From NCBI GenBank assembly GCA_007131295.1, contig SLQW01000040.1, positions 1-64,000 of the forward strand: a stretch of DNA of 64,000 nt, in the 5' to 3' direction. The notes beneath the pieces were generated by a model. That model searched no databases and was not told where the DNA came from. It worked only from the letters and a program-made list of their open reading frames with translations. Shown piece after piece: positions 10,400 through 13,601 of this stretch (positions are counted from its first letter, which is position 1; each line of letters begins with the position of its first letter). A program made the position numbers and the translations under genes. Source of the DNA: Pseudomonadales bacterium. GTDB lineage: Bacteria > Pseudomonadota > Gammaproteobacteria > Pseudomonadales > Azotimanducaceae.

Positions 10400-11278
10400 T
10401 CACTGCACCACCAGAACGTCGCAACGGGATTCGTCCAGGACGCGCAGCGTGACGCTGCCGAGCAGGAACTGTTCGGTAGGCGGTCGCGCATGCTTACCGA
10501 TCACGAGCAGGTCAGCCTCGAGCTCTGCCGCCTGTTCGAGCAGGACCGTTGCAGGATCCCCGGCAACGACCCTGCCCACCAATGGCTGCGTCGATGCAAG
10601 CTCTGTGACCAAATCCTCCATGCGCTGCTCTGCCTTGGCCAGCAGCCGGCGGCGAAACTTGGCGAGACCTTCGTGGCTCACACGTATGTAGGAAGCGCCC
10701 CGCGGTGAAGGGTTGTCGAAGGCATGGACCAGCGTGAGCGCCGCGCCAGGCGCGAGACTTCGGGCCCAGTCCAGGGCCCGGGTCGCATAGTCCGAAAAGT
10801 CCATGGCGATGAGCACGCGGCAGTACCTGTTTTCCGGGGCTGATCGCACCAGCAGCACCGGATCCGGATGCGCGCGCAGAAGTGCGCGGCTGGTTGTGCC
10901 AAGAGCAAGCTTGTGTTTGCTTTGCTGCCCGCGTGCGCCCAGCACCAGGAGGTCGAAGTCCTCCGCAGCCTCGAGGACCGCTTCCAGCGGCCGACCGCTT
11001 CGCACCTGCGGCTCGACCTTGATTCCGGTCGCTGACTGAACCTCGTTCAGCAGTCGTTCGAGGGTTTGCCCGGCACCCGCTTCGAATGGTTCGGGCAGGT
11101 CACTGGCACCACCGAACAGGCGCTTGAGGTTGTTCAGAAGATTTCGCTCCACCACATGCAGTGCGCTCACCCTGCCGAGCGCAAGTTCATCGGCCAGGAG
11201 AGCGCTACGCATCACGGCGTGCCTGGCGCCGGTTGAGAAATCGGTTACGGCGAGAACGGACTCGAGGCGGGGCATCAA
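10400..11278 (-). CDS. Tandem universal stress protein (two Usp domains)
   Basis: 292 residues made of two Usp folds in tandem (about 1-145 and 150-292). Each ends in a nucleotide-loop-like segment: LVLGARGQQSKHKLALGTTS in the first and LVIGKHARPPTEQFLLGS in the second. The first resembles the G-X2-G-X9-G(S/T) loop of ATP-binding members more closely than the second. It sits 34 bases upstream of the SLC13-type permease on the same strand, a common pairing of Usp proteins with transporters, so it may modulate that permease (inference). An AAGGGAG Shine-Dalgarno precedes the start. Confidence 0.9.
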   Translation of the reverse strand: MMPRLESVLAVTDFSTGARHAVMRSALLADELALGRVSALHVVERNLLNNLKRLFGGASDLPEPFEAGAGQTLERLLNEVQSATGIKVEPQVRSGRPLEAVLEAAEDFDLLVLGARGQQSKHKLALGTTSRALLRAHPDPVLLVRSAPENRYCRVLIAMDFSDYATRALDWARSLAPGAALTLVHAFDNPSPRGASYIRVSHEGLAKFRRRLLAKAEQRMEDLVTELASTQPLVGRVVAGDPATVLLEQAAELEADLLVIGKHARPPTEQFLLGSVTLRVLDESRCDVLVVQ

Positions 11279-11372
11279 CCGGATCTCCCTTACCCTGGAT
11301 GCCGATCAGAATGCGAAAAGGTATCCGACCACCGAGGACTTTGCAGTGATTTCCTGCGCCTGCCTGCCAGCC

Positions 11373-11942
11373 TCAATCGAACAGCCCGGCAGCTTCCGCA
11401 AGGATCCACAATCCCAGGGACAGTGCGAGAAGCGCGCAAATCCAGCGAATCATGCGCATCGGCAACCGCGCTGCATACTTGTGCCCCAACCAGATCGCCG
11501 GCGCGTTGACGAGCACTACCCCCAGCACCGCGCCAGCTAGAACTGGCAGAAAAGCATCGAAGCGCGCAGCAAGCGCCAGCGTAGCGAGCTGCGTCTTGTC
11601 CGCCATTTCGAGCATGAAGTAACTCACGGCGGCAGTCAGCAGGAGGCTACTGCCCGACATCGGTTCCACGAGCCCATCCTGCTCCGGAATCAACGACCAT
11701 ACGGCCATGGCGACGAAGGCACCGCCCACGACCCATGCCAGAAGGCGAGCGTCCAACCAGTCGGCCAGCAGGCTCCCCGCTGCGGCCGCCAGGGCGAGGT
11801 TCGCCAAGATACCCAGCACGAGGCCGCCGACGATCGGCAACGGACGACGGTGACGAAGCATCAGCAGAATGGTGAGGAAGAGACTCTTGTCGCCGATCTC
11901 AGCGATCGCGACCAGCACGAGAGCTACCAGAAAAGCTTCCAT
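11373..11942 (-). CDS. GDT1/TMEM165 (UPF0016) family cation exporter, probable manganese efflux
   Basis: 189-residue membrane protein of the UPF0016/GDT1 family, made of two homologous halves of three helices each. The hallmark acidic motifs are EIGDKS (about residues 15-20) and EMADKT (about 111-116), matching the family pattern E-x-G-D-(K/R)-(S/T), with Ala for Gly in the second. Family members export manganese or exchange calcium/manganese for protons. The assignment to manganese is strongly supported by the yybP-ykoY riboswitch directly upstream (about 12045-12165) on the same strand. Confidence 0.93.
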   Translation of the reverse strand: MEAFLVALVLVAIAEIGDKSLFLTILLMLRHRRPLPIVGGLVLGILANLALAAAAGSLLADWLDARLLAWVVGGAFVAMAVWSLIPEQDGLVEPMSGSSLLLTAAVSYFMLEMADKTQLATLALAARFDAFLPVLAGAVLGVVLVNAPAIWLGHKYAARLPMRMIRWICALLALSLGLWILAEAAGLFD

Positions 11943-12044
11943 GGACGTATGCCGGGCCGGGCGGTACGAGCACCATTTGGCAGCGGCACCCCCGCCCGGC
12001 CATGGGCGCGCCCACCACTCGCGAGTGGGTCGGATGCACGCGTG

Positions 12045-12165
12045 CCAAAGGTCTCGCCAGGCCTTGCGGCTGCACGCGCCATGGCCTGAGTACGACCCTG
12101 GCCAAGTATGTTGACGCGTGCCTCTCTACGGGAACCGAGAGCGGCTACTCCCCTGAGGACGCCTA
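12045..12165 (-). ncRNA. yybP-ykoY manganese riboswitch in the leader of the GDT1-family gene
   Basis: Read on the minus strand, the leader contains the conserved 5-prime element CAGGGGAGTAGCC (12143-12155), a middle arm with GTCAACATACTTGGCC (about 12100-12115), and the 3-prime element GCGAGACCTTTGG (12045-12057), in the order and spacing of the yybP-ykoY class. This class binds Mn2+ and turns on Mn exporters. Downstream is the palindrome CCACTCGCGAGTGG (about 12015-12028), which may belong to the expression platform. A weak TAGGAT -10-like element lies at about 12168. Identified by eye; boundaries approximate. Confidence 0.85.
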
Positions 12166-12206
12166 TATCCTAACAGTAGACGTAGCGCATGGCATCATGC
12201 GCTCGA

Positions 12207-13601
12207 TCACTTACCGATGCAGAAGCTCGAGAAAATTCGGCCGAGCAGCTCATCTGGCGTCACCGCGCCAACGATCTCACCGAGCCTCTCGTGCACGAGA
12301 CGGAGATCCTCGGCGAGGATATCACCCGCGCCCGTGGTCGCCAGGGTCTCACGCGCAGCGAGAAGTCCTATCTCGGCTTGCTCCAACGCCCTCAGATGGC
12401 GCGCGCGGGCCGTAAACGTCGTCTCGAGATCACCACTGAATCCGACTTCGGCGCGTATGCGTTCCCGCAGGGACGACAGGCCCTCACCGCTGACGACACT
12501 GATGGTGACTTCAGGCAGAAGCGCACTCCGGGCCTGTGCAGGCGCTTTGCATCTGGACGCTGACGTCTTGCCACCGACCAGATCACACTTGGAGTGAACG
12601 ATAACAACGCTCCGCGGGATCGCCGCACCCACCTGCGCAGCCACCTCTTCACGATCAGCGGGTACCTGTTCCGGCGAGGTGGAATCCACCAGAAAAAGGA
12701 GGCAGTCGGAACGCTCGATCTCCATGCGTGCCCGTCGCACCCCTTCCTGCTCGACGGGATCGTCACTGTCGCGCAGACCTGCCGTGTCCAGGAGCTGTGC
12801 CGGAATCCCGTCGAGATCGATGCGCTCTCTAAGCACATCGCGCGTGGTACCGGGGATTGCCGTGACGATGGCCGTCTCGCGCCGAGCAAGAGCATTCATC
12901 AGACTCGACTTGCCTGCGTTCGGTGCACCCGCAAGGACCAGCGTGATGCCGCCGGTAAGCAGGGCACCCTGACCGGCCTGCCTGCGAAGCGCAGCGAGTG
13001 TTGCGAGGAGCGACTCGATCCGAGCGGCAACCTCACCGTCAGCGAGAAAATCCACGTCCTCGTCCGGGAAGTCCATGGCGGCTTCTACGAACACTCGCAG
13101 GCCGGTCACCGCTTCCATGAGGTCATGCACCTGACTGGAAAATGCGCCCTGAAGGCTGCGCAATGCACCACGCGCTGCTGCTTCCGTACCCGCATCGATG
13201 AGATCGGCAATGGCCTCGGCTTGAGTTAGATCGATGCGATCGTTGAGAAAGGCGCGCTCTGAAAACTCGCCTGGCCGAGCGGCACGGGCGCCAAGGGTCA
13301 TGGTTGCGCGCAGGATGCGCTCGAGTGCCACCGGGCTGCCGTGCCCCTGCAGTTCCACAACATCCTCACCGGTGAACGATGCGGGTGCGCGATATCCGAT
13401 CACGATACCGTCATCGAGCATCTCGCCGGCGTTGTCGGCGATGAGACAGTGCTGGGCCCGTCGGGGAACGAGCTTTCGCCGAGTCAGCGCCTCACCAATG
13501 GCGAACGCATCGGGACCTGAGAGTCGCACGATACCGATACCACCTCGCCCTTCCGGCGTGGCGATGGCAACGATGGTATCGATGTCGACTGCCCCCGACA
13601 T
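12207..13601 (-). CDS. mnmE: tRNA modification GTPase MnmE (TrmE)
   Basis: GTPase partner of MnmG in U34 modification. 464 residues with an N-terminal tetrahydrofolate-binding domain, a helical domain, and an inserted G domain with G1 AGAPNAGKSS (about 225-234), G2 TTRDVL and G3 DTAGLRD. The C-terminal FCIGK supplies the catalytic-family cysteine motif. The G4 position reads SKCD (codons 12582-12593) instead of the usual NKxD. Located between yidC and the riboswitch-controlled exporter; in most relatives mnmG would follow. Confidence 0.96.
   Translation of the reverse strand: MSGAVDIDTIVAIATPEGRGGIGIVRLSGPDAFAIGEALTRRKLVPRRAQHCLIADNAGEMLDDGIVIGYRAPASFTGEDVVELQGHGSPVALERILRATMTLGARAARPGEFSERAFLNDRIDLTQAEAIADLIDAGTEAAARGALRSLQGAFSSQVHDLMEAVTGLRVFVEAAMDFPDEDVDFLADGEVAARIESLLATLAALRRQAGQGALLTGGITLVLAGAPNAGKSSLMNALARRETAIVTAIPGTTRDVLRERIDLDGIPAQLLDTAGLRDSDDPVEQEGVRRARMEIERSDCLLFLVDSTSPEQVPADREEVAAQVGAAIPRSVVIVHSKCDLVGGKTSASRCKAPAQARSALLPEVTISVVSGEGLSSLRERIRAEVGFSGDLETTFTARARHLRALEQAEIGLLAARETLATTGAGDILAEDLRLVHERLGEIVGAVTPDELLGRIFSSFCIGK

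Follow-up and report, generated by a model that had tools for sequence, protein, structure and literature searches.

Riboswitches of the yybP-ykoY class (RF00080), among them the leaders of Lactococcus lactis yoaB and of Escherichia coli mntP and alx, combine a common aptamer core with a downstream gene for the handling of Mn2+. Within this class, the alx leader of E. coli responds to pH. For L. lactis, one study describes P1.1 as the switch helix, in competition with a downstream strand (PMC11087558). According to a review, UPF0016 genes are under yybP-ykoY control in 328 of 333 strains, and MneA of Vibrio cholerae, a member of this family, is a Mn2+ exporter (PMC7380456). In Vibrio parahaemolyticus, mneA lies downstream of a yybP-ykoY riboswitch and is induced by Mn2+, and RNA-seq data show no drop-off at the riboswitch (PMC13274385). 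The pairing of this RNA with UPF0016 genes is already well known. What is new here is the comparison within one genus, and a limited literature search returned no published gain or loss of a yybP-ykoY riboswitch and no published link to mnmE.

Our analysis concerns a leader on the minus strand of a 64-kb window (the whole stretch of DNA that was analysed) from a draft genome of 3.87 Mb. The leader (11943-12206, 264 nt) spans precisely the interval from the mnmE stop codon to the ATG that opens a UPF0016 reading frame, and its elements are listed in Table 1. An Rfam scan across the window revealed RF00080 as the sole family above threshold (12158-12014, minus strand, 58.0 bits against a gathering score of 45, E 1e-12 for the window), and this was the one RF00080 match in the whole draft genome. 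A weak Rfam match to IRES_Bip inside the exporter gene (14 bits, cut-off 40) was rejected as chance.

Table 1. Elements of the riboswitch-exporter locus, in the direction of transcription of the minus strand.
Feature	Positions	Strand	Remarks
mnmE (tRNA modification GTPase)	12207..13601	-	Upstream neighbour, stop codon abuts leader; NCBIfam equivalog NF003661, 425 bits, cut-off 380
-10-like hexamer TAGGAT	12167..12172	-	TG before it (extended -10 form; TG-T-TAGGAT); 13 nt before GGGGAG
Mn2+ (yybP-ykoY) riboswitch aptamer	12037..12166	-	RF00080 58 bits at 12158-12014; model R1 93.6 bits
P1.1 5' strand GCGUCC	12157..12162	-	Pairs with 12046-12040 (GG-C-ACGC), bulged C at 12044; read from sequence
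Platform arm a (3' strand of P1.1 and beyond)	12031..12050	-	Predicted a-a' duplex
Extra hairpin CCACUCGCGAGUGG	12015..12028	-	Sequence
Platform arm b GGCCGGGCGG	11992..12001	-	Predicted pairing
Platform arm a' GGGGUGCCGCUGCCAAAU	11975..11992	-	Rival of P1.1 for arm a; predicted duplex
Platform arm b' CCGCCCGGCC	11955..11964	-	Ends 12 nt before start codon; no Shine-Dalgarno sequence after
GDT1/UPF0016 (MneA-type) exporter, 189 aa	11373..11942	-	PF01169; motifs EIGDKS, EMADKT

A second covariance model, R1, was built from the aptamers of 43 relatives in front of related exporter genes (43 chosen of 88 aptamers, the window left out). The window aptamer, located by R1 at 12166-12037, scored 93.6 bits (E 6e-21) and came 22nd among the 52 aptamers ordered by R1 score. 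The conserved elements GGGGAGUAG, UCAACAUACUUGG, AUGGCG and GAGACC were found in this order in the leader, and the window agrees with all 18 columns that are invariant among the 43 relatives, namely GGGGAGUA, UCAACA together with the U four positions further on, and UGG (loops L1 and L3). The alignment of 52 aptamers, which was fitted to the model, has 96.8% of its helix cells paired, with two-sided changes in 20 of 25 pairs. An aptamer match by chance is excluded. An earlier reading of the sequence alone had recognised the conserved 5' and 3' elements of the class in the right order on the minus strand and had suggested a covariance-model search with RF00080; the matches above bear out this identification. 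Three divergent but clear aptamers of the genus (L008, L011 and L012) scored 34-41 bits with RF00080, below the gathering score of 45, and 86-90 bits with the proteobacterial model R1, L008 being one of the 43 sequences behind R1; the Rfam cut-off misses members that are likely real. Matches to RF00080 were also observed before genes that look like sodium/calcium exchangers and not like UPF0016 (L007, L014 and L015), and at a further locus of genome G465 (L203, 2544-2925 and 1246-1421) a strong Mn2+ riboswitch with its UPF0016 gene follows some 1.1 kb behind a gene for tmRNA.

The open reading frame behind the leader (11942-11373) matches the GDT1 profile PF01169 with 121.2 bits (cut-off 27, E 2.3e-35), in agreement with the UPF0016 gene proposed by the sequence-only reading. 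It resembles the GDT1/UPF0016 family in its two repeats, its length of 189 aa and the motifs E-x-G-D-K-S (first) and E-x-x-D-K-T (second). The first motif, EIGDKS, fits E-x-G-D-(K/R)-(S/T), and the second, EMADKT, has Ala for Gly. Motif counts over 125 genes showed that the Gly of EMGDKTQ is kept in 123 of them and that EMADKTQ is common only to the window and genome G005; the form GDKSL of the first motif is restricted to the three genes of the window type (type A, see below). On its 3' side the exporter is followed by a gene for a Usp protein and then by one for a CitMHS/TrkA_C transporter. The earlier proposal that RNA class and protein family support each other, both being linked to Mn export, finds support in the curated models, which match, and in the association documented in PMC7380456 and PMC13274385. 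The locus is similar to the mneA leaders of V. cholerae and V. parahaemolyticus, where a yybP-ykoY RNA likewise precedes a UPF0016 exporter (PMC13274385). Unlike these, however, the window gene directly follows mnmE, is a divergent member (GDKSL, ADKTQ) and has relatives in sister species that lack the leader.

Six genomes of the genus were compared, G000 (the window's own) and G001-G005, each of which contains one intact two-domain UPF0016 gene. The gene order yidC-mnmE-UPF0016-Usp-SLC13 is common to G000, G001 and G005, and the exporters of the window type (type A) show 66-67% identity. G002 and G003 have the same order with a broken UPF0016 gene, and mnmE was not found in G004. The type A gene follows mnmE after a spacer of 29 nt in G001 and 12 nt in G005; behind mnmE of G003 only the exporter start and residues 128-186 are found (spacer 21 nt), and behind that of G002 only a start-and-end wreck (spacer 12 nt). 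Neither Rfam (E up to 1) nor R1 (E up to 10) detected an aptamer at the junctions of G001 and G005, and neither detected one at the wrecked loci of G002 and G003. The placement between mnmE and unrelated genes noted earlier was confirmed, with the addition that in sister genomes the same junction holds a gene or a wreck without riboswitch. The exporter of G005 (L151) and the wreck of G002 (L196) start with ATC, the others with ATG, and are in frame with the mnmE stop codon; judged by its sequence, the intact G005 exporter may use a non-AUG start or be coupled to mnmE. The window's mnmE has a branch of 0.4, compared to 0.05-0.15 in the genus mates, so this lineage has been changing faster.

In G002, G003 and G004 we found another exporter, type B, which is about 40% identical to type A. 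The type B unit occupies a syntenic locus behind two genes that are presumably VWA genes, and carries its own aptamer (86-90 bits by R1). The window's genome keeps the presumed VWA genes, a 228-residue open reading frame and an MgtE-like gene of this locus, but has neither riboswitch nor exporter in between; going by these flanking genes, the type B unit is deleted here. In G001 the type B locus lacks the exporter together with the genes downstream of it, and in G005 the locus was not found. With regard to the source of the window leader, no donor was found: a nucleotide search against 293 genomes from the order turned up short partial matches only (the best outside its own genome 75% over 78 query bases), and plasmids showed no match. 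When 88 leaders were ordered by similarity to the window, which itself came first, those of type B took places 27, 29 and 33, and an aptamer tree grouping the window with them was 7.4 log units worse (AU p 0.098). These comparisons give no support to a copying of the window leader from type B and do not firmly reject it.

The polarity of the change was assessed with a species tree from six genes, ((window,(G002,G005)),(G001,G003,G004)), with starred branches. Because the window nests among sisters without riboswitch at this junction, a single gain is the simplest history, with fewer steps than two losses. A tree with the window basal, that is, with all mates together against it, was rejected with six genes (AU p 0.0049) and not quite rejected with four (AU p 0.0566); if the window were basal, gain and loss would tie. 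Outside the genus, 16 loci with a whole mnmE were examined over 1.5 kb, and the exporter followed mnmE at none of them; a 17th locus had no more than a fragment of mnmE. The closest outgroup of the exporter comprises four genes of genus g11 of the same family (L176-L179), all without aptamer, and their sister placement received an SH-aLRT value of 89 with L176 and L177 as representatives in the protein tree described below. In total, 88 of 125 genes had an aptamer by pattern and R1 added 4 of the 37 misses, counts that are no measure of prevalence, as an RF00080 match was what brought many of the loci into the set. On a protein tree of 68 of these genes (thinned at 80% identity) aptamer presence changes at least 18 times. 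Going by the species tree and the gene neighborhoods, the riboswitch in front of the exporter was probably gained recently in the window's species, and we infer gain rather than repeated loss.

A riboswitch ancestral to the genus at the mnmE-linked exporter, deleted in both sister clades and kept by the window, appears unlikely to us. Riboswitch control is the rule for the UPF0016 family (the 328 of 333 strains in PMC7380456), the 18 or more changes on the 68-gene tree show that losses occur, and the four-gene test leaves room for a basal window. Yet such a history needs two losses, both of them ending in short spacers (12 nt in G005 as in G002, 29 nt in G001 and 21 nt in G003), against one gain; the basal position is rejected by six genes, and the closest outgroup genes are without aptamer.

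Downstream of the aptamer, leaders of relatives show two alternative pairings, in which arm a can pair with a' further downstream and the intervening arm b with b' just before the start region. For 81 distinct of the 88 leaders the mean z versus shuffles was -2.16 for a-a' and -2.63 for b-b'. Among 30 leaders, chosen of the 75 with platforms of 74-93 nt, the a-a' helix has 84.2% of its cells paired, with two-sided changes in 9 of 11 pairs; the covariation score of the whole structure was 0.423, compared to 0.189 for shuffles and 0.09-0.17 for slid versions. The window keeps both pairings (Table 1), with modest z versus shuffles (-1.24 for a-a', -1.96 for b-b'). Its P1.1 is by analogy assigned to the position of GGUCA/UGACC in relatives and would by the same analogy be the switch helix; the overlap of P1.1 with the alternative helix shows covariation in the 30 relatives and is in the window itself a pairing potential only. 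In this rivalry of P1.1 with a downstream strand the window resembles L. lactis (PMC11087558). However, no intrinsic terminator was found in 11000-12500, so the platform is not of the L. lactis type, and compared with the RF00080 examples it is longer, GC-rich and without Shine-Dalgarno sequence. Release of a Shine-Dalgarno sequence was rejected as the mechanism, since predicted accessibility was 0.277 in both states, with ON higher in 19 and OFF higher in 20 of 66 leaders (66 of 81 distinct leaders; the 15 left out, window included, have no recognisable Shine-Dalgarno sequence). This null result lends support neither to the ON direction nor to translational control. Switching ON with Mn2+ rests on precedent, by which the window switch would be an ON switch, and it would putatively act on translation. 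The lack of an RNA-seq drop-off at the V. parahaemolyticus riboswitch (PMC13274385) would be compatible with control after transcription passes the leader.

It is conceivable, though we think it improbable, that this species combines an intact aptamer with a weak, reversed or decaying switch, owing to a changed expression platform. The platform measures 112 nt and includes an extra hairpin, where 75 of the 81 distinct leaders have platforms of 74-93 nt; the predicted duplex energies are -45.7 kcal/mol for b-b' and -25.8 kcal/mol for a-a', and in the predicted fold the b-b' form dominates and the start codon is paired with an upstream CCAUGG, again with no Shine-Dalgarno sequence in the leader. 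Every invariant aptamer position and both platform pairings are retained, however, and predicted energies are rough for GC-rich RNAs. That the RNA responds in vivo mainly to another cue than Mn2+, such as pH or another divalent ion, as the behaviour of alx in E. coli towards pH might suggest, is very unlikely given the intact ligand-binding loops and a gene from a Mn2+ exporter family. A misjoined leader in this draft genome of 222 contigs is extremely improbable, since syntenic gene order continues on both sides within one 72-kb contig, the exporter clusters with those of G005 and G001, and the genome holds no second aptamer copy.

Indications for a promoter of its own come from a comparison of leaders. 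The -10-like hexamer with the best matrix score is located 10-17 nt before the aptamer core GGGGAG in 57 of 85 distinct leaders, against 12.6 expected for evenly spread positions; a generic sigma-70 promoter scan of 11000-12500 found no site. If the hexamer of the window is used, the RNA 5' end is predicted near 12160. A start right at P1.1 would let the leader act as a unit independent of mnmE.

All in all, we consider it likely that the leader is a yybP-ykoY Mn2+ riboswitch cassette which controls the GDT1/UPF0016 exporter and was gained in this lineage while a second regulated exporter was lost. The cassette most likely has its own promoter just before the aptamer, by which the exporter would be uncoupled from mnmE. 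By precedent, high Mn2+, the presumed ligand of the window RNA, would dock the two legs of the aptamer and lock P1.1. Locked P1.1 would withhold arm a from the a-a' helix, b could then pair with b', expression would rise on this pairing, and excess Mn2+ would be pumped out. The cassette would have been gained before an exporter that elsewhere in the genus follows mnmE without riboswitch, and the second riboswitch-controlled exporter would have been lost. We lean slightly towards the more specific scenario that a complete cassette of promoter, Mn2+ aptamer and two-state platform was inserted between neighbouring genes in an existing operon and took over a riboswitch-free exporter, in parallel with losing the other regulated one.

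The riboswitch is ordinary by itself; its use is that of a natural experiment, in which close relatives carry one exporter either with the RNA or lacking it, and an RNA-bearing second exporter where the first is broken. If the insertion scenario is true, it would represent a within-genus transplant of a riboswitch, rewiring a paralogue that assumes a lost function. Such presence and absence among relatives makes riboswitch gain, and the mutual replacement of regulated and unregulated exporters, testable with laboratory constructs.
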